Below are positions 8,176 through 37,239 of a stretch of DNA of 37,271 bases, in pieces. The DNA lies in NCBI GenBank assembly GCA_903912925.1, contig CAIWJG010000811.1, positions 1 through 37,271 of the forward strand. The letters are read 5' to 3'. Position 1 is the first letter of the stretch. Each line of letters starts with the position of its first letter. A program made the translations under genes and the position numbers. A model generated the notes under the pieces. The model was not told where the DNA came from. It saw only the letters and a list, made by a program, of their open reading frames with translations, and made no database searches. The DNA comes from an uncultured Verrucomicrobia subdivision 3 bacterium. GTDB lineage: Bacteria > Verrucomicrobiota > Verrucomicrobiia > Limisphaerales > UBA8199.

Positions 8176-8180
8176 AGTCA

Positions 8181-8197
8181 ATTGGTCAATAACCAAT
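8181..8197. promoter_or_regulatory. Small inverted repeat before the M6 protease gene
   Basis: ATTGGT (8181-8186) and ACCAAT (8192-8197) form a perfect 6-bp inverted repeat with a 5-base loop, placed 5 bases upstream of the ATG at 8175. It could be an RNA hairpin affecting translation initiation or a weak protein site. I see no Shine-Dalgarno sequence in this 39-base spacer. At this size chance is a real alternative. Confidence 0.25.
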
Positions 8198-14200: not shown

Positions 14201-17200
14201 ACCGCGTTGGACAGGCCCAAAGTCGCGCCGCCGCTGGAATTGTACAGGCGCAGGTTGACGGTGGCGTCGCCGCCCGGAGTTGGGTTGTTAATGTTCGTAA
14301 CCACGACCGTCTGGACCGCCACGCCGGGCAGGAAGGTGACCCGGGTATGATTAGTCCGGTAGTGAACCATGTTGGTGGCCGAGCCATTGAGGGTCTGGAA
14401 TTCCGCCGTCACCAGCCCGGTGAGCCCGTTGGTCCGGGTGATGGTGATACTGGCATTGGTGCTTTCACTGCACGAGTAAGTTGCGGCGCTGAAACCCAAC
14501 ACCCCGGGGAGGGTATGCGGGTCCACAATGGTCATGGTGGCGGAGGCTTGCCCGAGCGCCACACCCAACGGGATTCGCTCGCCGCCCAGCAAGAAGTTGT
14601 CGTTGTCGGTCGGATTGGCCAGTTGGATGGCCAACTGCCGGTTGCCCGAGGCGTTGGTGTTGTCGATCAGGCTGATGAACACATCGTTATCCGGAACGTT
14701 TTCAATGAGGAAAGGGTTCACGGTTGAGCTGTAACCGTTGTTCTGCCCGAAAAGCCCGTCCCCCAGGTGCCAGGTGGGATAGGGCCAGGTGGTCGGCCAG
14801 GTGGGAGTGCCGTAGGTGTTGGCGTCAAAATTGAAATCCCGGCCCTCGATAGCGATGCCCGCCACGCCATTGTTCGTCGAGTAGGTCAGCGGCGTGACCG
14901 TGACGGAGGCGGGACCGAGGTGGCCGTTGACGCGGGTCATGTTGATGAAACTTTGCTCGTCGGTCTGGTTAGCGGAGTAATTCTGATAGACGAGCCCAAT
15001 GTTGCCGGGGCCGGGGGTCGCCCCGCCGATAAGCCGGCAGAAGTTCTGCTTGTTGCTGACCTCGTCGCGGGTGGTGCCGCCGCCGACCCGCGGGAAGCTG
15101 CCCGCAATGAGGAGGTTGCCATCGGGCTGCAGGCCGAGGGCGTAGATGTAGTTGCGCGCTTCCGCGCCCGGGTCCCAATAGTGGCTGATCACCCCGGCGA
15201 ATTGGTTATAGGCGGTGTCCATGAAGCTGGTATCCACCGTGCCGTCGATGAACAGCCGCGCGAGGCCCACGCGCCGCGTCTGATTGAACCGGGAGAAAAT
15301 GCCGGCCAGCAGGACCTTGCCGTCCGGCTGCAAGGCCAGGGTATAGACGGCATCGTTCGCGCCCGCGCCCGTGAGGAAACCGAGGTCCAGATTGCCGAAC
15401 GGGTCGAGCCGGGTCAGGCCGGGACGCGCGTAGTTGTTGAAGGATTGGAACGCGCCGCCGACCACCACGTTGCCATCCGGCTGCAAGGCCAGGGCATAGA
15501 CGGTGCCGTCAAAGCCGGTGCCCGGGGCGAAGGTGGTATCGAGCGACCCGTCGGCGTTGAGCCGGGCGATGTGGTTGAGCGAGACCCCGTTGACGTGGGT
15601 AAACTCGCCGCCGATGATGACCCGCCCATCCGGCTGCACGCAGAGGGCAGAGATAGTGCCGTCCGGGCCCTGCCCCGGGTTAAAGGTCGTATCCGTAGTG
15701 CCATCGGGCAGCAGCCGGGCAATGTAATGGCGGGTGAAGGTGTTGACACTGCCGAATTCGCCCGCGATCAGGATTGCGCCGCTGCCGGGGTCAATGGCGA
15801 GCGCCCAGACCGTGCCGTCGGCCCCCTGACTCTGGGCGCCGAAGGATGGGTCCAGGGTTCCGCTGGAGTTGACGCGGGCAATGCGGTTGCGCGAGATCCC
15901 GTTAAACGAAGTGAACGCGCCCCCGATCACCGCCTTGCCGACCGCATCAATCGCCAGGGTGCTGATGAAGGAGTTGGCCCCGTTTCCCGTGTTGAAAGAC
16001 TGGTCGAGCGAGCCGTCGGTGTTGGCGCGCGCCAGGCGGTAAATATTGGCCTGGTTGTTAACGACGCCGATACCGTTGTAGTCGGTGAAATCGCCGCCGA
16101 TGATGGCCTTGCCATCGCTTTGAATCCCGATGGTGTACACGGTGCCATTGGGACCGGGGTGCAGGTTATACGCGGGATGCGTATTGGCATTATTCTCCAG
16201 GTTATAGGTTAAGTCGGCCGCGCCGGCAGGCTGGTCGCTGAACATGATCGTCAGGTTGCACGTCTGCACGTAGCCCAACGACCGCTCCGAGCCCGCGTTG
16301 GGATAAGTCGGGCCCGGCAAGGACAACTGCACCAAGAGGTCCTCATTGAACTGAACCACCGCGTCGTCGTAAATGGGGATGTCAATGAACTTGGGCGTCA
16401 TATCTGAGCCTTTCCACTCCAGCGTGCCGCTCGTCGTCGCAAAATGGATATTGTCCGAATATATGGAGCGACTGCATTCGGTATTGGTGACCACGCCGGC
16501 GTAATCCGAGCCCGGCTGCAAAGGGATTTCCCAGTCGTTCTGGTACGGATTGTTCATGAACGTGTTGTTCTCTGACTGACACGGGTGGAGGAAGTCAATC
16601 CGGTAATCAACGGAGGTATCCTTGGGGGGGGAGTCAATGGACGAACGAAAGACGGCGACGCGCGCGACCCCGATGCCCTCGGTGCAGCGGAGGGTCGCCC
16701 GCTCGAAATTGAACACATTCGTGCCGGGTGAGCCACTGCCGAGGCCTGCCGGTCCGCTTTCAGGATTATTCTCGTAGGGGATCACCATCGCCTGCTGGCT
16801 CAGGATATTGAGCATCGCGTTAGTGGCGGTGGTCTTGGCGGTAGGCGGCGGGATGGCCGTGGATTCGAGCGGGTCGAGCGCCACCCGGGTGATGGAGGCG
16901 ATCAGCACGTGGTTGAGAATGGGGAATCCCTGGCTAGAGCTCGGGAGGACCGTCACCAGAATGTCGGCGCTCATTTGATAATCGTTGAAGACCAATTGGC
17001 CCCGGGCAGGCAAGTAATCCCGGAAGGGAGTGGCGGAGGCGACGATATTTGAGCCTGATTTCGGCGGGAGGCAGAAGGACGTGGTGACCACCGGCACCGG
17101 ACCATTGGTATCCGTAACCGACGAGTTATCGCAGACGAAGTCTGGGGGAGCATTGGTCCACGGGTAGCTGACCAAAGTGCCGCCCTGATTCGTGCCGGTG

Positions 17201-18081
17201 ATGGAAGTCAGCAAGTACATGGTGGGGGTGTGTACCCATCGGCCGTACTCGTTGTTTTGGTAATTCGCGGCCACCAGGATGTTAGTGGTGAACACTTTGA
17301 TGCCCGCGACGGTTATGTTCGTCCCGAAGATGTTGGTGACGAATAGATTGGTGTAGTAGGTGTTGGTGACGCTGTAATTCACCAGCACCCGACCGGTTTC
17401 GCCCTTCAAACGGGTCACCGTCAGCCGCGCCCCCCGGGTGGTGTCAGACATGTCGAGGAGGGCGCTCTGAGGATAGTATATTTCGCGTTCACTAGCGATG
17501 TAGAGGGGTATGGCGGGCGAGGCGGCCTTGGCCTGCGAGGCGAACAGGAAATCCCCGGCGGCTGAAGCAGAAACCTGGCTGTTGGTGTTCCAGCCCAGCA
17601 CGAACTTGCCGTCCGGTTGGCTGTAATAAGGATAACCGCCCACCTGCACATGGTAAGTAGTGCCGGCCGTGGCATTGAAGTTGGCGGGCTGGCTGCCAAT
17701 CACACCGATGTCATAACCCTCGCCGGCGAGGGTGAGCGCATTCACGGCGTTGCCCGTGTAAACGCCCAGCATCGCATCGAAGCTGCTGCCGGCGGTGGTA
17801 AAGGAGTAGGCCCCATCGGCGGGCGCGGTCCACATGTACCAAACGGTTTCCACGGTCGCGACGCCATTGAGATCGGGTTCGCCGGTTTCCGTGCTCGCGT
17901 TGGCATTGGTGCCGCTGGTCGAGCCGCTGACCCCGCTAATCGCAATGGCGTTGGTAAAGTTGTCATTAGCCGGCACCGCCGCCAGGGCCACCGTGCCGGC
18001 CAAGCCGATCCAGACGGATATTCCGAGCGGCAGAACTCCCAGCCGGCCCAGGAAAGAGGCATTTACTTGCAATGTTTGCAT
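8215..18081 (-). CDS. Giant secreted protein: two propellers, Calx-beta, P domain, DUF11
   Basis: This 3288-residue protein has a signal peptide ending near VALAAVPANDNF and an N-terminal domain (about 30-155) like those of secreted bacterial proteases and adhesins. A divergent Calx-beta domain lies near 455-600. Seven delta-60 repeats (pattern ALQPDGK(V/A)(V/L)xGGxF) fill about 640-1005, followed by Calx-beta domains at about 1020-1535. A second set of seven delta-60 repeats spans about 1550-1900, then six more Calx-beta domains to about 2620. A GETVTV module plus P domain covers about 2620-2893, and two DUF11 domains about 2897-3147. The tail has two copies of the C-terminal module, ending NRYFRLR and QFFRLQG. 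No enzyme motif was found. Calx-beta domains bind calcium and delta-60 sets probably fold as propellers, so a long surface adhesin or matrix protein is the likeliest role. A TTGAC/GTCAA inverted repeat (18097-18108) precedes the start. Confidence 0.85.
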   Translation of the reverse strand: MQTLQVNASFLGRLGVLPLGISVWIGLAGTVALAAVPANDNFTNAIAISGVSGSTSGTNANASTETGEPDLNGVATVETVWYMWTAPADGAYSFTTAGSSFDAMLGVYTGNAVNALTLAGEGYDIGVIGSQPANFNATAGTTYHVQVGGYPYYSQPDGKFVLGWNTNSQVSASAAGDFLFASQAKAASPAIPLYIASEREIYYPQSALLDMSDTTRGARLTVTRLKGETGRVLVNYSVTNTYYTNLFVTNIFGTNITVAGIKVFTTNILVAANYQNNEYGRWVHTPTMYLLTSITGTNQGGTLVSYPWTNAPPDFVCDNSSVTDTNGPVPVVTTSFCLPPKSGSNIVASATPFRDYLPARGQLVFNDYQMSADILVTVLPSSSQGFPILNHVLIASITRVALDPLESTAIPPPTAKTTATNAMLNILSQQAMVIPYENNPESGPAGLGSGSPGTNVFNFERATLRCTEGIGVARVAVFRSSIDSPPKDTSVDYRIDFLHPCQSENNTFMNNPYQNDWEIPLQPGSDYAGVVTNTECSRSIYSDNIHFATTSGTLEWKGSDMTPKFIDIPIYDDAVVQFNEDLLVQLSLPGPTYPNAGSERSLGYVQTCNLTIMFSDQPAGAADLTYNLENNANTHPAYNLHPGPNGTVYTIGIQSDGKAIIGGDFTDYNGIGVVNNQANIYRLARANTDGSLDQSFNTGNGANSFISTLAIDAVGKAVIGGAFTSFNGISRNRIARVNSSGTLDPSFGAQSQGADGTVWALAIDPGSGAILIAGEFGSVNTFTRHYIARLLPDGTTDTTFNPGQGPDGTISALCVQPDGRVIIGGEFTHVNGVSLNHIARLNADGSLDTTFAPGTGFDGTVYALALQPDGNVVVGGAFQSFNNYARPGLTRLDPFGNLDLGFLTGAGANDAVYTLALQPDGKVLLAGIFSRFNQTRRVGLARLFIDGTVDTSFMDTAYNQFAGVISHYWDPGAEARNYIYALGLQPDGNLLIAGSFPRVGGGTTRDEVSNKQNFCRLIGGATPGPGNIGLVYQNYSANQTDEQSFINMTRVNGHLGPASVTVTPLTYSTNNGVAGIAIEGRDFNFDANTYGTPTWPTTWPYPTWHLGDGLFGQNNGYSSTVNPFLIENVPDNDVFISLIDNTNASGNRQLAIQLANPTDNDNFLLGGERIPLGVALGQASATMTIVDPHTLPGVLGFSAATYSCSESTNASITITRTNGLTGLVTAEFQTLNGSATNMVHYRTNHTRVTFLPGVAVQTVVVTNINNPTPGGDATVNLRLYNSSGGATLGLSNAVLTIINNFIPGGYVQFSSPAYSTNENAGYAFVTVTRNGSSAGTLGVQFSTSDGTATNGVNYLGLTNTLTWNNGDVASKVIAIPVLDDGVVETANLTVNLQLSSATLNGSPNSAALIGRTNATLSIVNTDSRGQVAFSTPVYNVNGNGGPGYVTVVRMGGSAESIAVNFAAIPGSATPGVDFYPTNGTLVFGPGEVSKTFTVPIFDNSYTYPPRYVTLTLSNATPTGSLGSPSVATLAIIENSGPPGSLDTAEDPTMGFNGPVYALTLQGDGKLLVGGDFTMASGIGRQRMARLNADGTLDQTFSSASPLMGADAPIVALISQTDGRIVLGGGFTNVNNLPHSFLARVALNGAADTTFNPGSGPNNPVFAVAEMFLGSDRKLLIGGSFTSFGSGAQNYIGRLNNNGTLDTGFQSAANGSVYAIAVQPDGKAVIGGDFTAVNGVALPHVARLNTDGSVDASFAPALGANGSVRAIAVQLDGRIVIGGFFTNVNGTALNHIARLTDRGAVDSTFTPGLGLNDSVSTIAIQPDTRIVLGGQFTVCGGVTRHRLTRLNNDGTLDTMINFGAGADSFVSALAIETNGMINLGGGFTQYDGQPRQRLARIYGGTVAGPGTLEFTSGNYQVLETAGNAILTVRRRGGTSGVLSNNVYVPNISVVGATDPSGGTAVQGANYLGVTNTLTFPPGEVFQALTIPVIHDFAITPGLTVSNYLSSPMPAVPGGPAIGNQPNALLTIVNVDSGVSFSAPTYIIAENVGYALIPVLRTGSSQGSSTVNFATLPLGTAVPYVNYVPVATNLTFVDGQTICLVQVPLIYDPRPTGNKTVVLQLSDANGSLLLNPFQATLTIQDVDQAPGQLLFSQTSYVVSEAAGFLPVTVLRTNGLSGTVQVNFSTVPGTASPGGKYLTTSGVLTFGPGQASQTFTVPILEQSVPTGNQTFSLVLSNATAGATIIPPTTVPVTIVDDKVGISFAAPVYAPLETAGTVVLSVFRQNATNQVTTVHYSTTNLTASAGVNYLGITNATLTFNPGETSKGIAVQVLHDPRVTGDLAFGVNLFNPSAPAQVFNYASTVVNVLDVDAGLSFSTPDRVVITNADLSTVTNASYSVLKSGTSLLVTVFRTNANTGTVSVNYATTTKASDTAVPSVDYAATSGILTFSNGVTLQSFQVPILNNRQLEGDLTFSIDLTNPVGGAPGVAQLIPPSTATVTITDDIAGISFSSSYYRVNENGGSATIAVLRGNYTNSTVSVSYGTAGLTAIPGVNYSNVTGTLTFNPGDTLKTFSVPVRDDGVLSGDHTVSLVLSNLVGNALFVNPQAATLAILETDGSVIVAAGAALISEGGTVNGVIDPGETVTVLFALRDSVGTNTANLVATLLATNGITNPSGPQNYGALVVHGPSVSRPFSFTASGATGQTITATFQLQDGTINRGSAAFNFTLGQTTASFANPAAIIINDNAPAAPYPSTINVSGLAGLVTKATVTISNLNHTWPNDIDALLVSPTGQKSYLMAKCGGSYIANNVTLTFDDSAASSLPHFTQIVSGTNRPTSYAFTAPPFPPALTPPPPYNTNLAVFKGNNPNGAWSLYVIDDTPYNNGVISNGWSLSLVIAGVVPAQADVGLAMSASPATVVVTSNLTYTLTLTNYGPSAATNIVVTDTLPLGMTFVSSSSPGNVIYSAGVVTWTVPVLALNATASLALVVQANSTGVITNTAAVTTGTADPNPDDGTAAAVVNVVSPTADLALGLTDTPDPLWLGNYLTYSITVSNGGPATATGLITVDTLPPAVNFISASPVNTYTVVGQVVTFTNLGNLASGAQTNLTITVQPTTAGTLTDTAACHSEVIDPFKANNSASVKTIVQPLPLTVSQEGPNLVISWPANLGNYILESTTDLRPPVVWLPAMDAAPALVGGQITVVVPIGLGNRYFRLRWTSVPTLPLNISRAGANIIIAWPINPWNCSLQSATNLQAPVVWSPVSSPVPVVIGGQNTVTLPIGSAGQFFRLQGTAP

Positions 18082-25546: not shown

Positions 25547-28390
25547 TCAATTCTTTTCCCGCCCGGCTGCGGCGGCGGTTTGCGTCGGGAAACCACCCTG
25601 CGCAAAGGGCATTTCGTCGTCCGTATGCAACCGGTTACCCGAGGGGTCGATGAGCGTAGGGGTGACAAAAATGAGCAGGTTATTCTTGCTGGTCTGCTTG
25701 GATTCACTCCGGAAGAACCGGCCCACGAGCGGGAGGTCGCCGAGCATCGGGACCTGGTCTTTGATGGTGGTGACGGTTTCGGCGAGCATCCCGCCGAGGA
25801 CGACGGTCTGGCCGTCCCAAACATTGACCGCGGAAACGACCTGGCGCACCCGGAACAGCGGGAGGACCACGGGAACCATAACCAAGCCGCCCGGAAATGC
25901 TCCTGAGGTGGACAACGCCGAGGAGTCCACGGAATTGGGATTGTCGTAACCGACGAACTCCGTCAAGGTCGGGATCACGGTCATGTTGATGGTGAAGCCA
26001 TCCGAGAGCACGCAAGGAATGACGTCCAGCGTGGGCCCCAACTCCATCTGCTCGGGCATGGGATAGACAAAGGTAGCGGTTGGAGCTTGAACGGAGGTGC
26101 CACTGCCGACCGACGCGCCGGTGGCGCCGGTGTTCTGGCTGAAATTATAGGCGGTGATGATGGTCTTGACCTGGGTAGCCTTCATCTGCGCCTGCCGGCC
26201 ACTTTGGGTGGTGACCTCGGGCTGAGCCAGAAGTTCAGCCCCTTGCCGCTGCTGCAAGGCCTTAATCACCAGGCGGAATTGCGGATCCGTCAGGATGCCG
26301 GTGAGAGTGAAAAGCGTGGTGGAGGGATTGCGCAAGCCAGAGGTTAAGATTTGGTCCGTGCTGCTCGGCGCGGTGGCCGTGCCGGCGGCAACATTGCCGG
26401 GAAAGACTGTAGAGGGAGGATTCTTACCAGACAATGAAGGGGCCGAGCCGCCCTGCCCCCCAATCGTCCCATTGTTCATCAACACATTGCCCAGGTACCA
26501 GTCAAAGCCCAGCGCTTTGTTATCATCCTGGGAAACCTCGACGATCTTGGACTTGATATTGACCTGGGGCGGAACAACGTTGAGGATTTGAATGGCCGCC
26601 TCAATGATATCCAGGTCCTGAATGGTGGCTCGGACCAGGAGCACCCCTTGACGATCGTTAAAGAAGACGGCCTTGCCGGGATTCTTTATCGGATCAAGGT
26701 CAACCCCCAAGGCAACGAAGTAGTTGACGGCGGCCTGCGAGACCTGGGTCTCGTTATCCACCTGGGTAATGTGTTTCAAACCGCCGCCGCTGCTGCCGCC
26801 GGTGGCACCGCCTGCGCCGCCTGCGCCGCCTGCGCCGCCCATACCGCCACCCATACCGCCGCCCATGCCGCCGCCCATGCCGCCGCCCATGCCGCCGCCC
26901 ATCCCCATACCCCCCCCAGCGACACTCACGCGGGCAACCATTGCACCTACCCCGCCGCCCATACCGCCGCCCATACCGCCGCCCTGGCCGCCGCCTTGGC
27001 CGCCACCGCCCATACCACCGCCGCCACCGCCCATACCGCCGCCGCCGCCACCCATACCGCCGCCGCCACCGCCCATACCGCCGCCGCCACCGCCACTGCT
27101 GCTATTACCCACGTTATAGGAGCCTCCGAAACTCATCGCCCCTACGTTTTGCAGGCCCTGATAGAAGGTGTTGGGATCAACCTTAAAGGTGCGAATGTAG
27201 AGGGGGGTCGCCTCGCGCGCCTTCAATGAGAACACCACGGCGTAATCCTCGACCGAATACTTAATCGGTTTATCGGCTACTTTCACGATCGCATCCAACA
27301 CGTCCGCCAAGCGGATGTCATTGAGCGCCGGGTTGATCTTGATGGAGATGGAGCTCATATCCACCTGCTCCACGGGAGCGGCCGGAATCGGCTGGCCGTC
27401 CGGACCAAGCGACGGCAGGCCGGGAATGGTGGGGCCAGCGCTGTCGATGTTCTGGTTGACGAGAAAATTGATGCCGCGCTTTTCCGGGTCGCGCTTTTTG
27501 GCTTCGTCGTTTAGACTGATGATGACCTCGCCCAAGGGCAATCCGTCATACTTGATGGTGTCGAGGTGGATGCGATCCAGCTTGGCGATGATACTCTGGC
27601 GGCCCTGGCCGGTGAATACGAGGTTGGTGCGGGCGTAGGGATTCGGCACGGGCAAAAGGTCGCGGGTGATCGGGGTGGCCCAAGCCTGCTCGACGGCGCG
27701 GACGTCTTGCCGCATGGTCACCTCGTGCAATTTTGATGCCCGCACGAATTTGGCCTCCGAAACGAGGTTAAGATAATAGAGGGCAGCTTCATTGTGCGGG
27801 TCCTGCTTGAGGGCCGCCTTGAGCTTGGCGTCGGCTTCGTCCAACTTGTCCATTTCGAACAGCAGCTTTCCGTCGTGCACCAGCGTGCTGGCCTTGACTT
27901 TCTCTTCCATGACCGCCGGCACCTGGCTCCGGACATCTTCGCTGGGGATCCGGCCGCGCTGCTCGGCGAGCAGTTTTTCGTTGCCGGTTTTGAATTCAAT
28001 GGCCGCCGCATTGGTGGGATCAACGCGCAGCCCGTCATCGATTTGCGTCCGGGCCTCTTTATAGTCGCCCCGGCGCTGCGCGGCGCGGGCCAACTCGAGC
28101 CGCACCGCGCCCAGGCCGGCTACGGTCTGGTCGCGCTCGGCGTCCACCCCGGACCCGATCTTCTGCACCAGCTCCCAGGAGTCATCGTAGAGTTTGGCCG
28201 CCGAGGGGAGCGCGTGGCGCTCTTGCGCAGCGCGGGCGTCCGCCAGTTTCTGCCGCAGGGCAATGCGGTTGGCCTGGCGATAAACGGCCTCGTTAACGGC
28301 GGTCTCTTGCGGTGGGGTCTGGGCCGGGGCCGCCGAAGCGGCGGCGAGCAAAGCGATCAGGGCGAGCGAGAGGGTGGCTGCTTTCATCAT
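25547..28390 (-). CDS. Amuc_1098-family secretin, type IV pilus or type II secretion-like
   Basis: This 947-residue outer-membrane secretin would form the multimeric channel of a pilus-like or type II secretion-like machine. After a signal peptide (MMKAATLSLALIALLAAA), residues about 30-215 form a TPR-like helical region, including LDEADAKLKAALKQDPHNEAALYYL. Secretin N-domains follow at about 285-425. Residues about 432-536 are almost pure Gly and Met. Another N-domain (VRATIQDLDIIEAAIQIL) and the secretin core (about 697-920) come next. The core carries the family signature: VLGGMLAET, DQVPMLGDLPLVGRFF and NNLLIFVTPTLIDP. I use ATG 28390; ATG 28387 is as good, and a longer TTG start would overlap the upstream stop. 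It is the last of four clustered genes, 35 bases after the Amuc_1099-like gene. The TPR plus secretin layout and gene order match the Akkermansia Amuc_1098 locus as I recall it. Confidence 0.93.
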   Translation of the reverse strand: MMKAATLSLALIALLAAASAAPAQTPPQETAVNEAVYRQANRIALRQKLADARAAQERHALPSAAKLYDDSWELVQKIGSGVDAERDQTVAGLGAVRLELARAAQRRGDYKEARTQIDDGLRVDPTNAAAIEFKTGNEKLLAEQRGRIPSEDVRSQVPAVMEEKVKASTLVHDGKLLFEMDKLDEADAKLKAALKQDPHNEAALYYLNLVSEAKFVRASKLHEVTMRQDVRAVEQAWATPITRDLLPVPNPYARTNLVFTGQGRQSIIAKLDRIHLDTIKYDGLPLGEVIISLNDEAKKRDPEKRGINFLVNQNIDSAGPTIPGLPSLGPDGQPIPAAPVEQVDMSSISIKINPALNDIRLADVLDAIVKVADKPIKYSVEDYAVVFSLKAREATPLYIRTFKVDPNTFYQGLQNVGAMSFGGSYNVGNSSSGGGGGGMGGGGGGMGGGGGGMGGGGGGMGGGGQGGGQGGGMGGGMGGGVGAMVARVSVAGGGMGMGGGMGGGMGGGMGGGMGGGMGGAGGAGGAGGATGGSSGGGLKHITQVDNETQVSQAAVNYFVALGVDLDPIKNPGKAVFFNDRQGVLLVRATIQDLDIIEAAIQILNVVPPQVNIKSKIVEVSQDDNKALGFDWYLGNVLMNNGTIGGQGGSAPSLSGKNPPSTVFPGNVAAGTATAPSSTDQILTSGLRNPSTTLFTLTGILTDPQFRLVIKALQQRQGAELLAQPEVTTQSGRQAQMKATQVKTIITAYNFSQNTGATGASVGSGTSVQAPTATFVYPMPEQMELGPTLDVIPCVLSDGFTINMTVIPTLTEFVGYDNPNSVDSSALSTSGAFPGGLVMVPVVLPLFRVRQVVSAVNVWDGQTVVLGGMLAETVTTIKDQVPMLGDLPLVGRFFRSESKQTSKNNLLIFVTPTLIDPSGNRLHTDDEMPFAQGGFPTQTAAAAGREKN
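26781..27094 (-). repeat. Low-complexity Gly/Met tract within the secretin gene
   Basis: About 104 codons encode GGGGGGM units and then GGGM units. Short interruptions read QGGGQGGG and AMVARVSVAG, and the tract ends in GGAGGAGGA. On the plus strand the DNA is a run of CCGCCGCCCAT-type units. Such codon-level repetition is prone to length change by slippage. The tract lies between two secretin N-domains, so length changes would alter a flexible periplasmic linker, not the barrel. Confidence 0.9.
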
Positions 28391-28425
28391 GGTTAGGATT
28401 GCGTTTGGGAAAAGTCTGGCGCAGT

Positions 28426-29232
28426 TCAAGGGGCGGCACCGGCACGGTACTTAATGGTCCATTTCTTTTGGTTCGATTTAGCGGACAATACAACTTCGTT
28501 CTCGGTGATGGCAACGATATTGTAATCCTCGCCGTTGAAAGCGAGCGACGCGCCGACGCGGCGGTTGGTCCAGGTCTTGGCCTCCGGCGCGTACTTCATA
28601 TCGACCACGTAGCCATCAACGCGCCGGAAGGGCTGGTCTTTGGCCACCGTCGCGCGCTGCGCCGTGTCGTTCAATTCCAGCACGACCGTGGCGTTGGTCG
28701 GGTCGTCGGGCGCCGTTTTGACCTCACGCAGGGTGAAGGTGTCGTTCTTGGTATTGAGCGAACAGTACTTCTGCGTCTTGCTCCGGTCGCGTGGATTCAC
28801 GGCGGCTTCCTTCTCGATGCCGATAACGTAGCGCGGCCCGGCCTCCAGGAGGGTGACCGAATCGAGCGTGAGCTTGAGGTGCAAGGGGACCATCTTGGTG
28901 ATCGTCACCGCGTTAGGACCAATATTAGTGACGTCCACTTTGATGAGATGACCATCAGCCGCCTTCTGCCAAGGCATCGGATTGAAGAGTTTGTTGGGGG
29001 CGGAGAGATCGATCGTGGCGGGCGCGGCCGCCCGCTTGAGCACGGTGTCCGGCAGGGTGAGGTCCAAATTGGTCAGCGGTTTGACTTTGAGGTGAATGAG
29101 GCGATTACGCATGTCCTCCAGCGTCTGCTTTTCACTGGTGATCTTGTAAGGCAGAAAGCCGACCGCCACGGCCAAGCCCAGGAGCACGACGCCGAGCAGG
29201 ACCTTTTCGTAGTTTTTCTTGAGAAAATCCAT
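28426..29232 (-). CDS. Amuc_1099-family pilus-like system protein
   Basis: This 268-residue protein has a short cytoplasmic start (MDFLKKNYEK), one membrane anchor (about residues 11-29, VLLGVVLLGLAVAVGFLPY) and a periplasmic part. The latter has two beta-rich segments: about 85-175, with LKLTLDSVTLLEAGPRYVIGI, and about 200-265, with VGASLAFNGEDYNIVAITENEVVLS. The second looks like the small beta domain that inner-membrane partners such as PilP or GspC use to contact the secretin. The assignment rests on position as well as sequence: it lies between an Amuc_1100-like gene (2 bases apart) and the secretin, as in Akkermansia. It probably links the inner-membrane platform to the secretin; that role is inferred. 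Confidence 0.8.
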   Translation of the reverse strand: MDFLKKNYEKVLLGVVLLGLAVAVGFLPYKITSEKQTLEDMRNRLIHLKVKPLTNLDLTLPDTVLKRAAAPATIDLSAPNKLFNPMPWQKAADGHLIKVDVTNIGPNAVTITKMVPLHLKLTLDSVTLLEAGPRYVIGIEKEAAVNPRDRSKTQKYCSLNTKNDTFTLREVKTAPDDPTNATVVLELNDTAQRATVAKDQPFRRVDGYVVDMKYAPEAKTWTNRRVGASLAFNGEDYNIVAITENEVVLSAKSNQKKWTIKYRAGAAP

Positions 29233-29234
29233 CT

Positions 29235-30323
29235 TTACTTGGAAGCGGCCGGTTTCACTGCAATGAGCATCAGGGTGACTTTCAACTGTTTCTCGTCCAG
29301 ACTGATCGGCAGGCCGCCGCGGTTGGCCGACGCCGACGCTGCGGGCGCCACTGGCGGGACATACGCCGGGGCAACAGGCGAGGGCCCGCCGCGATTACCG
29401 TAGCGCTCGGAAAATGCCGACCCCGGCGCCCCCCGGCCCCGCATACCGTAGCGCTCGGCCAATCTCGCCTCCACGGAGGGGGCCATGGCCGGAGCAGGCG
29501 CGAGCGGGGCATAGGGAGTAGCGGCGGTGGACGCAAATGCTTCGGCGCCCGCGGCCGCCGCCGGCGCCGACTCGACGTTGATGGTCTTGACCAGCAAACC
29601 GCAGGGAGAGGCGGAAAAGCCGGCCAGCACGGAAGCCAGCTCAGAACTGAAGCAGCGGAAGGTCACTTCATAAGGCGACAGCACGGCCAATTCATTCGTC
29701 ACGGTCTTCTCCGTTAGATAATCGGTTTGCGGCCCCTTAAAATCGTCATCGGAGACCCGTTCGCGCCGGATATTGTCCAGCGAGTTAACCTTGGCCTGGA
29801 CCAGCACATTGCAGATGCCCTTGACCTCAGCCAGTTGCACAGAGAGGGGGGCGAGGCTGCCGGGGGCGTAGGCGAGGCTCTTGCTTTGGGCGGCGAACGA
29901 AAAACAATACGGCTGGCCAGTCGAATCCTTGGGCGGCAGAGTTACGCTCGCTTTGGTGGCGTCGCGCTGCATCTGGTCCAGGGTTCGGCTCAGGGCGGAG
30001 CTGAATTCCTGGGGGGTCAACTTGCCGGATTCCGGGACGGGGATGGGGGGGCAAAGTTGAAAATACTGGCGAGCTTTCCCGATATAGGCACGCATCTCCT
30101 TCTGCTGCTCCTTGGCGGCTTGAATGTTGTTGACCTGGTCGGACCCCGGATGCGGGTTCTGATCATTCAAGCGCTTAAGCTCGACGTATTGTTCGTCAAG
30201 CTTGCCGAGGAATTCGTTATTGAGTTGCCACTTGGAATAGAGGTACCAGCCGGCCAGGCCCATCAGCGCCAACGCCACCAGGCTCCCGATCAGAAAGTAC
30301 AAATTGCGCTTTATCCAGTCCAT
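29235..30323 (-). CDS. Amuc_1100-family pilus-like protein
   Basis: This 362-residue protein starts MDWIKRNLYFLIGSLVALAL, a single N-terminal membrane anchor followed by a coiled-coil-like helix (LDEQYVELKRLND...). The periplasmic part has two alpha/beta segments: about 105-245, with QEFSSALSRTLDQMQRDATK and LVQAKVNSLDNIRRERV, and about 245-280, with YEVTFRCFSSELASVLAGF. A flexible Ala/Pro/Gly linker with two ERYG(M/N)RG-like motifs precedes a last strand, LKVTLMLIAVKP. The same layout is known for Akkermansia Amuc_1100 (317 residues), a membrane-associated protein noted for effects on host signalling. Five Cys residues are scattered through the periplasmic part. The ATG at 30323 lies 1 base past the PilM-like stop; a longer upstream frame would overlap that gene and spoil the anchor. 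A PilO-like platform role is inferred, and no host interaction should be assumed. Confidence 0.85.
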   Translation of the reverse strand: MDWIKRNLYFLIGSLVALALMGLAGWYLYSKWQLNNEFLGKLDEQYVELKRLNDQNPHPGSDQVNNIQAAKEQQKEMRAYIGKARQYFQLCPPIPVPESGKLTPQEFSSALSRTLDQMQRDATKASVTLPPKDSTGQPYCFSFAAQSKSLAYAPGSLAPLSVQLAEVKGICNVLVQAKVNSLDNIRRERVSDDDFKGPQTDYLTEKTVTNELAVLSPYEVTFRCFSSELASVLAGFSASPCGLLVKTINVESAPAAAAGAEAFASTAATPYAPLAPAPAMAPSVEARLAERYGMRGRGAPGSAFSERYGNRGGPSPVAPAYVPPVAPAASASANRGGLPISLDEKQLKVTLMLIAVKPAASK

Positions 30324-30324
30324 A

Positions 30325-32289
30325 CTACAATTTGAGCGGGTGTTTGAGCCGGGCGACGATGCTGAAGGTGAACGTTCCGCTCTGATCATCGTTCACCACC
30401 TCGCTGGTAGTGTGCGTCTCCTGCGGGTCCGGGTCAAAGAAGGGACTGTTTTGCAGTTCTTGCAGCACGGAATAGGCGATGCCCTTGTCCGCATCCGCCT
30501 GACCGGAAGTGTTCTTCAAGCTGACGGCGCGGAAGGTCATGGTGAGCGTGGCAATTTCTTTCGCGTCGCCCTTGGGCTTGCGGGAGCCCGTCGCGGCGGC
30601 GGGGGCGGCGGCATCCCCCTCGGCGGCAGGCGGTTGTTCGGCGGCGGGCGGTCCGGGAGGTGGCCCACCACGCCCCGGCATTCCTCCCCGCCCTTCGAGA
30701 CCATAGCGCGCGCCATAACGTTCGCGGAATCTCTGCGCCGCCATAGGGTCCATGGACGGCATGGCTGGCGCGCCTGAAGCAGCGCCCGCGTCCATCCCCG
30801 GGGTTCCATCACCTTCCGCCCGCGGAGCGGCCGTGAGCAATTGTTCGATCCATACCCCGGCATCCGTGCGCAGCTTCCCCTTGGTGGTCTGTTCCACCTG
30901 GATCAGCAACCGGCGCAGTTCGCCCAGGACGTCCACCCAGTAGAATCGGTCGCCCATCCAAGTGACTACTTGAGCGACTTCGTCCTTGGTCTTCTTCAAA
31001 CTGCTGTGGGCGGTCTTGAACTGGACTTCCTTCGCCTTTTCCGGCTCGACATCCTTTATCACCGTCGCCAACACGTCGGTCTTGACCACGGCCAGCTTGT
31101 CAAACAGGAAGGCCATCGCCGCCACGACCGCCACGAGGCTGAACACGGTGGCGATGAAATAGGGCTTCTTCTGGTTGAAGCGCTGCCAGCGGAGGGTGGT
31201 CGCCGGCATCAAATTCAACTCGACCGGGCAATGCGCCAGGTTGCGCAGCCCCAGGCCGACCACCTCGCCGAGCGAATGGGCCACCCGCGCCAGCTCTTCC
31301 AGGTTGATCGCGGGGTCAAGCTGAACATTTCGCAGCGGGTTGAAGTACTCGACCGGCACGTTCAGCTTCTCGGCAAAGAACTGCGCCGTGTAGGGCATCA
31401 CCGACGCGCCGCCGGACAGGAACAACCGCTGCGGCGCCGAGCCGCCCTGCTGTCCGCGGTAGAACTGCATGGTCTGGTTAACCTGGATGTGCAGCCGGGT
31501 CATGAACTGCCGGGCGATCTTCGAAATAGCCGCCTGATGCTGGTTCTCTGGTTCTTCGTAGGCGCCGCCCAAGCTGACAAATCCTTCTTCGATCTTGAGC
31601 TTCTCCGCCGCGTCGAACTTCAGCTTGGATTCATTGGCGAAGTCCTGCGTGATCGAGTTGGCACCGAGGTTGATGCTGCGGGAGAAAACCTTGCCCTTCT
31701 CGAAGAACAGCAAGTTGCTGGTCTTGGCGCCGATGTCCAGCAACATCGTGCAATCTTCCAGATCGCCGTAGTTGTAGCGGAACGCGTTGCACAGGGCGGC
31801 CGGGGAGACATCGGTCAGTTGCAGGCGCAGCCCGCTGCTCTCCGTCACGCGGAACAAACCTTCAACAATGTCGGCTTTGATGGCGACCAGCAGCACTTCC
31901 AGTTCGCCCCCGGCCGTCGAGCCCAGAATCTGGTAGCTCCACACGACTTCCTCCAGCGGGAACGGCACGTTCTGCTGCGCCTCATACTGGATGATCTGCG
32001 TCACTTTGCCCGCATCCACCGGCGGGAGCTTGACGAATTTGGAGAAGACGTGGAAACCCGGCGCGCACACATTAACATTCCTGGCCTTAACACCCTTTTC
32101 CGCCAGGAGCTGTTGGAGCGCTTTGAGAACCGTCGCTTCGCGCGTGGCTTCCTGCGCGCCTTCGGCGCCGAGCGACTTGAGCGCGTACTGCTTCAAACGC
32201 AAGCCGCCAGCTTCATTGACCTCGAACTCCGCCAGCTTGAGGCTGCCGGCTCCGAAATCAATCGCGAGAAATGACTTTGTGTTCAGCAT
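30325..32289 (-). CDS. Amuc_1101-family PilM-like ATPase fused to a PilN-like part
   Basis: The protein has 654 residues. Residues 1 to about 350 form an actin/FtsA-like PilM domain: FLAIDFGAGSLKLAEF at the N-terminal phosphate loop, LLDIGAKTSNLLFF near 185, and LFLSGGASVMPYTAQFF near 285. A membrane helix follows (about 375-396, FIATVFSLVAVVAAMAFLFD). Beyond it is a helical periplasmic segment, a Pro/Gly-rich linker with RFRERYGARYGLEGRGG near 516-532, and a final alpha/beta segment (IATLTMTFRAVSL) as in PilN or GspL. Canonical PilM is a soluble protein of about 350 residues that binds the tail of separate PilN; here both seem to be in one chain. The gene leads the pilus-like cluster, with the next start 1 base after its stop, and a candidate promoter lies upstream. 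It would sit at the cytoplasmic side of the inner membrane. Confidence 0.9.
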   Translation of the reverse strand: MLNTKSFLAIDFGAGSLKLAEFEVNEAGGLRLKQYALKSLGAEGAQEATREATVLKALQQLLAEKGVKARNVNVCAPGFHVFSKFVKLPPVDAGKVTQIIQYEAQQNVPFPLEEVVWSYQILGSTAGGELEVLLVAIKADIVEGLFRVTESSGLRLQLTDVSPAALCNAFRYNYGDLEDCTMLLDIGAKTSNLLFFEKGKVFSRSINLGANSITQDFANESKLKFDAAEKLKIEEGFVSLGGAYEEPENQHQAAISKIARQFMTRLHIQVNQTMQFYRGQQGGSAPQRLFLSGGASVMPYTAQFFAEKLNVPVEYFNPLRNVQLDPAINLEELARVAHSLGEVVGLGLRNLAHCPVELNLMPATTLRWQRFNQKKPYFIATVFSLVAVVAAMAFLFDKLAVVKTDVLATVIKDVEPEKAKEVQFKTAHSSLKKTKDEVAQVVTWMGDRFYWVDVLGELRRLLIQVEQTTKGKLRTDAGVWIEQLLTAAPRAEGDGTPGMDAGAASGAPAMPSMDPMAAQRFRERYGARYGLEGRGGMPGRGGPPPGPPAAEQPPAAEGDAAAPAAATGSRKPKGDAKEIATLTMTFRAVSLKNTSGQADADKGIAYSVLQELQNSPFFDPDPQETHTTSEVVNDDQSGTFTFSIVARLKHPLKL

Positions 32290-33709: not shown

Positions 33710-35107
33710 CTATTTGGCGCCGGTGCCGGCGAGGACAGCCGGCAGGGTGCGCCAGAGAATCCAGATGTCCAGCCAAAGCGACCAAGTGTCAATGTATTCC
33801 AGGTCCAGCCGCACCCAGTCCTTGAAATCGCAGACATTGTTGCGCCCGCTGACTTGCCACAGGCAGGTCAACCCCGGTTTGACGCTCAGCCGCCGCCGGT
33901 GCGCCAGGTCGTTGAACCGCTTGACTTCGTCCACCGGCAGCGGTCGCGGCCCCACCAGGCTCATCTCGCCGCGCAGGACATTGAAGAGCTGCGGCAGCTC
34001 GTCCAGGCTGTACTTGCGCAGGAACTTGCCGACGCGCGTAACGCGCGGGTCATTGGTCACTTTGAAGACCGGGCCGGTCATTTCGTTCATCGCCGCCAGC
34101 TCGTGTTTGAGCTGTTCGGCGTTGGTCACCATGGTGCGGAATTTATAAAGGGTGAAGGGCCGGCCATTGATGCCCGACCGCTGTTGCCGGAACAGCACCG
34201 GCCCGGGCGAGGTGAGCTTGACGAGCAGGGCAAGCAGCCCAAGTAACAGCCAGCCAAACAAGAGCGCCAGGAACGACCCGAGCGAATCTATCAACTGCTT
34301 GGCCACTCTCGGCCACGAGGAGTCCGGAGTCGAGCGGAAGACCAGCACCGGCCAGCCGTAAAAATCGTCAAAGCTGGTGCGCGAGATTTGAGCTTTGAAG
34401 AAATCCGCCACCAGCCAGGCCTCGACTCCCTCCAGTTCGCACGCCCGAATGGCGGCTTCGACTTGCTCAAAATATGCGTGCTTCGCACTGAGGATAACGC
34501 CATTGACAGAGTGCTCGTGCAGCATCTCCACCAGCCGCGGGACGGTCGTCTGGTTCAGATCCACCCGCGCCAGTATTTCAATTTCCGGCGCCGATTTGGA
34601 CTTCAGTTCCGCCTCCATCCGCACCGTTTCTTCGCTCGCACCGACCAGGATCACCCGCCGCCGGTATTGCTCCTGCGCCAACTTGCTGCTCACAAACCAC
34701 CAGAACACTTCTTCCTTCGTAAATACGAGCCCGAAGCTGCTCACCCCAAACCAGATGACCACCCAACGCGCAACGGGTGGAATCTGGAACAGGAACATCG
34801 TCAGAACCAGCCCAATACTGATGAAGAAGCAGCCTTTGAACAGAATCCAGGCGGTCGTGCTCCGGGGACACAACATCGGCCGCGCGTAAAACCCCTGGCC
34901 CTCCAGGATCAGCGGCGCAGCAGGGATCAAGACCAAGTACAGCGACATGTAAGTTTCGAATGGCTGAGTCCACTCCCTTAGACCAAAGAGATTAATGATG
35001 GTCGGGTTGGCCCGCAGTTCGTAAGCTAGCCAGAAGCTGAACGCGAAAAGGCAGGCATCCATCAGTTGATGGATTTGCATCCGAATCTGGCGGTCGCGGC
35101 GCAACAT
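33710..35107 (-). CDS. Polyprenyl glycosylphosphotransferase for exopolysaccharide
   Basis: This 465-residue membrane protein should transfer a sugar phosphate from a nucleotide sugar to undecaprenyl phosphate, the first step of repeat-unit assembly. The N-terminal part has four membrane helices (roughly 14-32, 50-68, 85-105 and 112-130). A cytoplasmic nucleotide-binding-like domain follows ([27 protein letters not shown]). A fifth hydrophobic segment near 275-297 leads into the bacterial sugar transferase domain: [53 protein letters not shown] and [13 protein letters not shown]. Architecture and length are those of the WbaP/WcaJ/EpsB-type enzymes. Which sugar it uses cannot be read from the sequence. 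The start at ATG 35107 has no clear Shine-Dalgarno sequence. The 353-base spacer upstream may separate its transcript from the exosortase pair. Confidence 0.95.
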
Positions 35108-35460: not shown

Positions 35461-36204
35461 TCATGGCCGAGCGGTGGAGGTCTGTCCGGCCGGGCGTGGG
35501 ACCAACTGGATGTCCGGCGCGGAGGCGACGATGAACTTCTTCAGGCGATCGCAGGCCGCGTCCTCCTGGCCGGGCGCGCAGACGGTGAAATAGCTGATCA
35601 TGGCCCACCGTTGCAACACGCCCGTGCGGACAAGGTCCCGAGCCATCCACCACATGCGCTGCCAATGTTGCGCAGTGAACTCGTCGCCGTCGGCCACGAA
35701 CCAGGCCAGATAGACCCCTCGGGCAGTAAGCTTCCGGCCCTGCTCCGTCACCTCGCGAGTGGCAATGAACTTCATGACGGGCAAGTCATAAGGGTAAGGC
35801 CGGTCGATGCGCACGGTCGTTTCGTGCGAAGCACTTCGATCAATGCTCCAACCCTGCCCTTCCAGGCAAAACTCGGTCTTGTGCAGGCTGGTGCGATCGC
35901 TTCCCATCAGCACCACGTTCACCGACGCCTGAAAGCCATCGGGCGCCCGGTAAAGCCGTTGACCGAAGCTGGTGTCCGGTGGCAGCCAATCCAGTGCTGT
36001 CTTGTCCACCTCCACCGCCTGAGAAGCGTAGTCGAGCGCGCGCTCCGGCAGCTCGACCTGGAGCCGGATGCTGCCCGGGATGGGGCGGGTCTTGACCGCC
36101 GGCTGGCCCAACTTCTGGTGAGTGCGCAAATTCGTCAGCAGGCCCGCAGTGCCGCCCATTAAGCCCAGCGCCACGATCAGGATTATCCATGTTTGCTTGT
36201 TCAT
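35461..36204 (-). CDS. Exosortase-associated EpsI-like protein
   Basis: The protein has 247 residues with one N-terminal membrane segment (about 6-25, WIILIVALGLMGGTAGLL) and a periplasmic domain of the EpsI/DUF3485 type. The family pattern is visible: LPPDTSFGQRLYR near 74-86, VNVVLMGSDRTSLHKTEFCL near 95-114 with His108 and Cys113, and EGQGWSI. The second half (YLAWFVADGDEFTAQHWQRM) is also usual for the family. EpsI proteins accompany exosortases, either as a separate gene or fused to them, and are needed for the associated exopolysaccharide in the systems where they were tested; the biochemical act is not settled. It begins 18 bases after the exosortase stop, so the two are co-transcribed and probably act together at the inner membrane. 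Confidence 0.9.
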   Translation of the reverse strand: MNKQTWIILIVALGLMGGTAGLLTNLRTHQKLGQPAVKTRPIPGSIRLQVELPERALDYASQAVEVDKTALDWLPPDTSFGQRLYRAPDGFQASVNVVLMGSDRTSLHKTEFCLEGQGWSIDRSASHETTVRIDRPYPYDLPVMKFIATREVTEQGRKLTARGVYLAWFVADGDEFTAQHWQRMWWMARDLVRTGVLQRWAMISYFTVCAPGQEDAACDRLKKFIVASAPDIQLVPRPAGQTSTARP

Positions 36205-36222: not shown

Positions 36223-37239
36223 TCAGACGACTTGCGCGGGCGCGGGGTCGGCGACGGGCTTAGATGGCTGTTCCCCAAGCAGACGCCCCAGCAGGATTAA
36301 CCCGGCGAACGCGGCAACATAGGGCAGCAGACTGATAATGCCAAACGGTCCCCCTTCATGCACGTAGTTGCCCGCTTCCTGTCCCCAGACCTCCGCCGCG
36401 ATAATAATAGTCATCATCCGCACGATGTTGCCAAAGACCGCCAGGGGCACGGCCGACGCAATCAGCACCCCACGTTTCCACCAGGGCTGGAAGCAAAGCA
36501 TGGCGTAGATGATGCCCACCGCGACGGTAGCGAACAGGCTGCGAATCCCGCTGCACGCCGCCGCCACGTCATACTGATAATGGCCGGCCGGATTCATCAA
36601 TGCCGTGCCCACCCGGAGAATATCAATCTGCAGAATGTAGCCCGAAATCAACTCCACCGCGCGGCAGACCAGCAGCCGCAGGGGAAAGGTAATGGACACC
36701 GCCGACCACCCCAGCGGCACACAGAAGGCGAATAAGCAGAACGGGAAGAAGCTTTCGTACAGCCATTGGGGTCCCCACGCCAGCCCCATCAAACCGTAGA
36801 TGCCGACAAACAGCGCGACGATCGAAATGCGCGGTTGCTGGACCATGTAGCCCAGCAAATGCAGCCCCAGGGCCAGCGCCACCACCAGCAACCCCGGGGT
36901 CCAGGTTCGGAGCGGCAGGGCCAGCAATCGCTTGCGTTTCAACCAGAATAGCCCCAAGACCAAGAAGGGAATCAGTTTCCCGTGGCTGTCGTCCCTGGCA
37001 GCCGCGTCCCCAGTGGAGCCGTAGGCGGCGCTCATCCAGGACAGTAGCGACGGCGTGGGAATATAGCCCACCGTAGAATTACCCAGGAAATGGAACAGCG
37101 ACAGCCAGGCGACCAGCAGAACACAAAACAGGCCTTTGTTCGGCAGTCGTTGCCAACAGTCGGCAAGCTGAATGCGGAAGTCTTCGAGAATCCCGTTGGC
37201 CGGTTGCTTTTCCATTCGCACAGGGTCTGGCACTTGCAT
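36223..37239 (-). CDS. Exosortase/archaeosortase-family transpeptidase
   Basis: This 338-residue polytopic inner-membrane protein has about eight hydrophobic segments. The three catalytic residues of the family are in place: Cys229 in VAAACSGIRSL, Arg274 in FGNIVRMM and His294 in YVHEGGPFG. The early loop DDSHGKLIPF also matches. Exosortases cut and probably re-attach proteins bearing a C-terminal PEP-CTERM-like tripartite tail, and they are linked to exopolysaccharide loci; here EpsI and sugar-transfer genes follow. No protein in the window has a PEP-CTERM-like tail, so substrates must be encoded elsewhere or differ in form. I use ATG 37239; ATG 37215 (MEKQPANG) is an equal alternative. Only 32 bases lie upstream in the window, so its promoter, or a preceding operon member, is out of view. 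I do not assign an Xrt subtype. Confidence 0.93.
   Translation of the reverse strand: MQVPDPVRMEKQPANGILEDFRIQLADCWQRLPNKGLFCVLLVAWLSLFHFLGNSTVGYIPTPSLLSWMSAAYGSTGDAAARDDSHGKLIPFLVLGLFWLKRKRLLALPLRTWTPGLLVVALALGLHLLGYMVQQPRISIVALFVGIYGLMGLAWGPQWLYESFFPFCLFAFCVPLGWSAVSITFPLRLLVCRAVELISGYILQIDILRVGTALMNPAGHYQYDVAAACSGIRSLFATVAVGIIYAMLCFQPWWKRGVLIASAVPLAVFGNIVRMMTIIIAAEVWGQEAGNYVHEGGPFGIISLLPYVAAFAGLILLGRLLGEQPSKPVADPAPAQVV

Follow-up and report, generated by a model that had tools for sequence, protein, structure and literature searches.

What a short peptide motif is doing in two neighbouring proteins of a pilus platform is the question raised by the locus described here. The locus lies on contig CAIWJG010000811.1 (assembly GCA_903912925.1) of an uncultured Verrucomicrobia subdivision 3 bacterium of the order Limisphaerales, the 37,271 nucleotides of which are referred to as the window, and its minus strand carries a four-gene pilus-platform operon that encodes a PilM-PilN fusion (hereafter PilM), an Amuc_1100/PilO-like protein (hereafter Amuc_1100), a third protein and a secretin. 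The initial annotation had reported three stretches with a shared ERYGxRG motif in low-complexity periplasmic linkers of the first two proteins. All three were found at the positions described, on the minus strand, and both linkers are rich in Pro, Ala and Gly and mostly disordered in AlphaFold models. The conserved element proved to differ from the one proposed, in that RYG is kept but the E and the trailing RG vary. Taken together, the analysis indicates that RYG(L) probably serves envelope proteins of the Limisphaerales as a short linear recognition motif, docking on one shared reader.

Conservation and joint evolution of the motif in the pilus proteins

The conserved core consists of a hydrophobic residue at position -3 from the Arg, followed by R-Y-G and then usually by L, I or M, the fuller motif being [M/F][D/S]Px[M/F/L]xxRYG[L/I/M]. 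RYG occurs in 45 of 111 PilM linkers, where 1.1 would be expected from shuffled linkers and where its enrichment exceeds that of any other tripeptide. In Amuc_1100 it occurs in 47 of 111 linkers (2.4 expected) and is outranked by two tripeptides, both of which seem to belong to the folded C-terminus and to have been caught by the linker cut.

The order sample of 58 genomes yielded PilM in 54, among them that of the window. Among a first set of 53 operons, RYG was present in the tails of both proteins in 24, of PilM only in one, of Amuc_1100 only in two and of neither in 26, and in the two genomes with RYG in Amuc_1100 only, PilM shows a near-motif (FARRYHL and MQRYN, respectively). A further set was made up of 80 named loci that bear the labels Limisphaerales, Pedosphaera, Verrucomicrobia subdivision 3 or plain Verrucomicrobia, along with a few others, and some of these loci are from genomes of the first set; three lack one of the two genes, and in the remaining 77 the motif was present in both proteins in 25, in PilM only in five, in Amuc_1100 only in eight and in neither in 39. 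Merging the sets and collapsing PilM proteins at least 98.5% alike reduced 124 tips to 111, with the motif in both proteins of 40 operons, in neither of 57, in PilM only in six and in Amuc_1100 only in eight. Presence in these counts means RYG anywhere in the tail, and stray RYG is thus included. Loci L017, L026 and L028, which either have no Amuc_1100 gene or duplicate L088, were left out of the 53-operon set; L079, L082, L087 and PilM proteins shorter than 560 residues were also left out of the 111-tip set, and L067 (genome G028), in which the Amuc_1100 tail looks out of frame, was scored negative.

Presence of the motif in the two proteins evolves jointly, as revealed by a Pagel test on the PilM tree of 111 tips (likelihood ratio 44.8, p 4e-9; some rates of the dependent model are close to their bounds). 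Parsimony on the same tree requires 21 and 19 changes for the two motif presences. Absence from the orthologues of both proteins in close relatives, which by the initial annotation would have refuted the proposed docking site, was therefore not the outcome; rather, the motif is present in both, and is gained and lost jointly.

Hosts outside the pilus and genome dialects

A search of nine genomes with a DNA pattern for the motif returned 49 matches, as opposed to 26 for the backwards pattern, so that roughly half of the raw matches are chance. Hosts outside the pilus include YfbK-type VWA proteins, VIT-VWA proteins, M56 peptidases (one fused to a secretin), TPR proteins, a CvpA-like membrane protein (a weak Pfam match), the tail of an ABC-2-like permease, a dienelactone-hydrolase-type protein and proteins of no recognised family. 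A membrane-like segment lies ahead of the motif in 32 of the 33 hosts kept, compared with three of ten matches that were set aside by eye because they fall in globular-looking or tiny frames (HisS, PurD, an efflux pump, L238 and others, named by reading). Genome G024 alone has at least nine host proteins, which is the many unrelated exported hosts per genome seen with sorting tags; one of them has four tandem motif copies and another ends with MSPELMRRYGLQE at the stop codon. In three reading frames (L171, L219, L228) the motif ends two residues ahead of the stop. The window's own genome has one more host besides the two pilus proteins, encoded on contig C287; this protein of 640 residues has a membrane-like segment and bears FRRRYGL. 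The proposal that the motif be sought in other envelope proteins of this genome and its relatives was thus borne out, in that many unrelated membrane or secreted proteins carry it in linkers or tails.

A motif model (A2) gave 77 matches in 29 of the 58 genomes of the order sample, 46 of them below an expect value (E) of 0.05, a forward count that is inflated by training sequences and includes a few chance matches; the reversed model gave seven matches in seven of the 58 genomes, the best at E 0.052 and none below 0.05. At E <= 0.02, matches were obtained in 13 of the 188 genomes of a class sample, 12 of them from the window's order (the window's own included) and the thirteenth a chance-looking match in a globular protein, and none of the 144 genomes beyond the window's own in a phylum sample had a match; many FRRRYGL-type members are missed at this threshold, and the absence elsewhere applies to the stronger motif form only. 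Motif-bearing proteins were present in G015 (L212) and G042 (L222), incomplete genomes in which the PilM gene was not found, and judging from these the motif's presence may be independent of the pilus operon. An unusual sensor-peptidase/secretin fusion was also encountered in genome G056 (L221:2862-6863, plus strand), a 1334-residue protein that combines an M56/BlaR1 peptidase, an Amuc_1098-like secretin and SLBB, with four RYG motifs.

The residues preceding RYG agree among unrelated proteins of one genome. For example, G026 has MMDIRMLMRYGLL in PilM and PMDIRMLMRYGLL in YfbK, G038 has DEVFMQRYGL in two proteins, and G056 has EAMMKRYG in PilM and YfbK. Over seven positions, identity to the PilM motif of the same genome was 0.594 within genomes and 0.225 between them (20 genomes and 50 hand-picked host motifs, G025 being outside the test), with a p value of 2e-5, the floor of the shuffle, that was the same when shuffling was restricted to clades; an earlier version with 17 genomes gave 0.62 versus 0.25. 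The test was repeated with YfbK proteins taken by family, in order to remove the hand choice of hosts, and motif identity was then 0.71 within and 0.19 between genomes (p 5e-6; clade-restricted, 6e-5). YfbK itself carries the motif in ten of 19 genomes that have it in PilM or Amuc_1100 and in none of ten that do not (p 0.005, kinship ignored). These YfbK counts were made by hand from 32 YfbK genomes, with G015, G023 and G042 left out for want of a PilM match. G031 was scored motif-free although the VWA frame was not found at one of its two YfbK loci, G010 counts as motif-bearing by Amuc_1100 alone and G044 by PilM alone, and the G030 YfbK is cut by the contig end; odd-shaped stray RYG, as in G031 C34 (SERFRYGGA) and at the start of the G047 C73 frame, was not counted.

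Synonymous codons at shared residues were identical in 182 of 407 cases, compared with 167 expected from codon usage, a nominal excess, and the DNA flanks of motif copies were 10-60% identical in the pairs compared, most of them below 50%. The peptide is kept, then, while its codons are near random, which indicates that selection acts on the peptide and not on the DNA.

Predicted structure and genomic setting

In the AlphaFold models, which rest on alignments of 48 and 67 sequences, each linker joins two strands of its periplasmic domain, and an isolated short helix is predicted at the main PilM motif and at copy 1 of Amuc_1100. Confidence (predicted local distance difference test, pLDDT) of the block is 57-60 in PilM, where the linker outside the motif is at approximately 33-38, and 72 in Amuc_1100, where the linker is at 46-56. 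The predicted helices of both models stop at RY-G. The motif looks like a small capped helix, with a D/S-P start, a hydrophobic face, and Gly plus L as a putative C-cap. Coordinates are presented in the table.

Positions in the window of the motif copies, the linkers that hold them and the genes of the pilus-platform operon
Feature	Positions	Strand	Remarks
PilN-domain linker, residues 487-577	30559-30831	-	Between strands 479-486 and 578-589 of the AlphaFold model
PilM-PilN motif, MAAQRFRERYGARYGLEGRGG	30682-30744	-	Predicted helix, residues 515-526
Amuc_1100-like linker, residues 253-346	29286-29567	-	Between strands 243-252 and 347-358 of the AlphaFold model
Amuc_1100-like motif copy 1, SVEARLAERYGM	29442-29477	-	Predicted helix, residues 284-292 (VEARLAERY)
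Amuc_1100-like motif copy 2, FSERYGNRGG	29385-29414	-	Weak copy; RYG not followed by L/I/M, no helix predicted
PilM-PilN fusion, Amuc_1101-like	30325-32289	-	PilM domain, membrane helix, PilN-like periplasmic domain
Amuc_1100/PilO-like protein	29235-30323	-	N-terminal membrane helix and periplasmic domain
Third operon gene, Amuc_1099 by position	28426-29232	-	Without family match
Amuc_1098-like secretin, TPR N-terminus	25547-28429	-	PF00263 and TPR matches; NF042912 332 bits, below cut-off of 750

The PilM domain is supported by PF11104 (127 bits; cut-off 27), TIGR01175 (143.6 bits; cut-off 133) and PilM 3jc8 in the PDB (E 7e-46). The fusion scores 485 bits with the Amuc_1101 equivalog model NF045709, below the cut-off of 650, and on these profile scores is classed as a relative of Amuc_1101 and not an equivalog. 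Similarly, the 29235-30323 product reaches 61 bits with the Amuc_1100 family profile NF038287, the cut-off of which is 180, and is claimed from its sequence only as Amuc_1100-like; a sequence-profile search of the PDB gave no matches at E <= 0.01, whereas a Foldseek search with the AlphaFold model matched the Amuc_1100 structure 6lad_C (E 7.5e-9) and, more weakly, PilO 2rjz (E 2.6e-3). PilN and PilO have related folds. The domains around the motifs are thus not wholly unrelated, contrary to what had been assumed. Orthologues of the third gene stand after the Amuc_1100-like gene in most loci fetched, and the translation of the window's copy contains no RYG. The secretin has a long Gly/Met-rich run (GGGMGGGMGG) ahead of the secretin domain, at about 26700-27100.

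The operon resembles Amuc_1098-1101 of Akkermansia in having related gene families in the same order. It differs in that the family scores of the window's proteins lie below the NCBIfam cut-offs, and in that A2, as noted, is without a match at E <= 0.02 in the 144 other genomes of the phylum sample. Elsewhere on the minus strand of the window, an exosortase-family protein (36223-37239) and a weakly EpsI-like protein (35461-36204) are encoded near an exopolysaccharide sugar transferase (33710-35107), so that, by sequence, a PEP-CTERM type system lies not far from the pilus operon. A giant 3288-residue protein (8215-18081, minus strand) has nine delta-60 repeats, DUF11 repeats and stretches matching a sodium/calcium exchanger model, which are probably Calx-beta repeats, and a 2142-residue protein (1768-8196, minus strand) has an M6 metalloprotease domain and DUF11 repeats.

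Proposed docking on a shared reader and its alternatives

The disordered context of the motif, and its small core of conserved residues on which selection acts, are as expected of a short linear docking motif. On balance, the data suggest that docking or sorting throughout the envelope of the Limisphaerales follows a dedicated code. Pilus-platform, sensor and secreted proteins would be marked by a helical RYG(L) tag, internal and often present in several copies, and one co-evolving extracytoplasmic reader would bind them all, with a dialect in each genome. Under this scheme a stretch of approximately 11 residues would fold in the periplasm as a capped mini-helix within an otherwise disordered linker or tail, as predicted for the two proteins modelled, and its hydrophobic face (the -3 residue, Y and L) and invariant R would dock in a groove of the reader. 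The motif would hang from a hairpin loop in each of the PilN and PilO-like domains, tethering the platform to the reader, through several motif copies in some genomes; VWA proteins, M56 sensor peptidases and further hosts would be collected by this reader as well. As the reader would differ among lineages, the motifs of one genome would drift jointly as a dialect. It is the combination of the capped-helix form with dialect, tandem copies and tail positions that argues for docking on one co-evolving protein. The initial annotation had envisaged a docking site common to partners of one complex, bound by peptidoglycan or a common third protein. Docking fits, but restriction to one complex is too narrow given the many unrelated envelope proteins that carry the motif; peptidoglycan fits poorly, since recognition of a conserved polymer should not give rise to genome dialects; and a third protein accords with those dialects, although the search for it, described next, did not identify the partner.

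Several observations weigh against a shared reader. The secretin, with its TPR domain, was the initial candidate, but phylogenetic regression of its residues on motif presence revealed only a few scattered weak columns in 1933 tests (largest |t| 4.9), and the third protein gave a largest |t| of 4.7 in 802 tests; no column follows the motif strongly, and neither protein is supported as the reader. Outside the motif, association is strongest within Amuc_1100 itself, in the membrane-proximal first 60 or so residues (five of 984 tests with |t| above 4, largest 5.0), and exceeds that of any secretin residue. Comparison of operon neighbours in the second set of loci, of which 25 have the motif in both proteins and 39 in neither, did not yield a convincing candidate either. 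Clusters named by our own reading, aided by family matches, as glycosyltransferase-like (0 versus 21), acylphosphatase-like (0 versus 17) and phosphoesterase-like (0 versus 13) stand only or mostly beside motif-free operons, and sugar transferase (10 versus 2), epimerase (10 versus 3) and exosortase-like clusters (7 versus 2; p 0.02, kinship ignored) are commoner beside motif-bearing ones; these differences are taken as clade differences in gene order. Furthermore, the 57 motif-free operons among 111 show that the pilus proteins manage without the motif, and the confidence of the predicted helices is low to moderate. The window's own copies are atypical, poor members of the family: only the second RYG of PilM is followed by L, and with motif model A1 the PilM copy is not listed even at E <= 10, copy 1 of Amuc_1100 appearing at E 0.034. 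The dialect excess is also small inside the window's family (0.50 versus 0.38, compared with 0.66 versus 0.35 outside it), and the match between PilM and Amuc_1100 (0.28 versus 0.15; 40 tips, p 2e-5) is much weaker than that between PilM and YfbK.

The main rival to docking, although unlikely, is that the motif is a recognition site at which one protease, periplasmic or intramembrane, cuts envelope proteins, several of which are regulator-like or sensor peptidases. Co-evolution with a single enzyme would likewise yield a dialect in each genome, and several hosts are regulator-like, such as M56 proteins and YfbK-VWA proteins with an N-terminus that reads as anti-sigma-like. However, tandem copies (up to four) and motifs two residues from the stop would be odd cleavage sites and favour docking over cleavage, and a capped helix, as predicted here, is a poor protease substrate. 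Less probable still is that the motifs act as homotypic stickers, binding one another or another motif-bearing host and so clustering envelope proteins without a separate reader. Tyr/Arg/Gly-rich linkers are like sticker sequences, and the motif is found on two members of one complex and also in tandem; but stickers would need neither a capped helix nor a sharp dialect, and many hosts have a single copy.

Very improbable is a small mobile or copied in-frame DNA element spreading in harmless linkers, the dialect reflecting descent from one founder copy per genome. Copies of in-frame mobile repeats of the Rickettsia palindromic element type are alike at the DNA level, whereas here codons are near background and flanks mostly unrelated, on which grounds recent DNA copying was rejected. 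The many unrelated hosts per genome and the identical peptides in some genomes would suit such an element, and GlyGly-CTERM regions have been argued to be paralogous domains (PMC3237569); yet joint gain and loss in two genes is not explained, and old copying followed by later selection would still require a function. That the motif is a compositional accident of Met/Arg/Gly-rich linkers is barely credible and was rejected, for although the linkers are of low complexity, stray RYG occurs in some G-rich ones (L290, L322, L325) and chance accounts for about half of the raw DNA-pattern matches, linker shuffles, the reversed-model control, the phylum control and the dialect all argue otherwise.

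Docking on a reader has parallels among known systems. Linker peptides join inner-membrane platforms to secretins, as do those of PilP, with PilN/PilO and PilQ, and of GspC; there, too, pilus or type II machines have short binding sites set in disordered stretches of the periplasm, but here PilN and PilO themselves bear one motif, as do non-pilus proteins, and the secretin gave no clear signal. Eukaryote-style short linear motifs share the disordered context, the few fixed positions and the occurrence in unrelated host proteins, whereas the RYG motif is bacterial, putatively extracytoplasmic, so far found in one order, and has genome dialects. PEP-CTERM/exosortase and GlyGly-CTERM/rhombosortase are alike (PMC1569441, PMC3237569) in that one short motif is borne by many otherwise unrelated exported proteins per genome, with a sporadic distribution and a many-to-one reader, and the hosts of GlyGly-CTERM include a VWA protein (PMC3237569). 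Their signals are C-terminal, a motif followed by a membrane helix and basic cluster. The RYG motif is instead internal or in a short tail and often repeated, and no membrane helix is part of the signal; the LPXTG arrangement is likewise lacking, as is illustrated by the hydrophilic tail MSPELMRRYGLQE. The term 'RYGL motif' was not found in the open-access papers searched (preprints being outside the scope), nor was the motif described there in the title or the start of the abstract of the matches listed. Both docking motifs and tags used throughout a genome have general precedents, and it is the internal, repeated form of the tag that differs from known ones.

Many-to-one tags have previously led to new enzymes, namely exosortase and rhombosortase. 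If the docking reading is correct, an internal multi-copy tag on the pilus platform and on regulator-like proteins would indicate that the cell envelope has a new organiser in this largely uncultured order, and the dialects would constitute a natural series of peptide-reader co-evolution.

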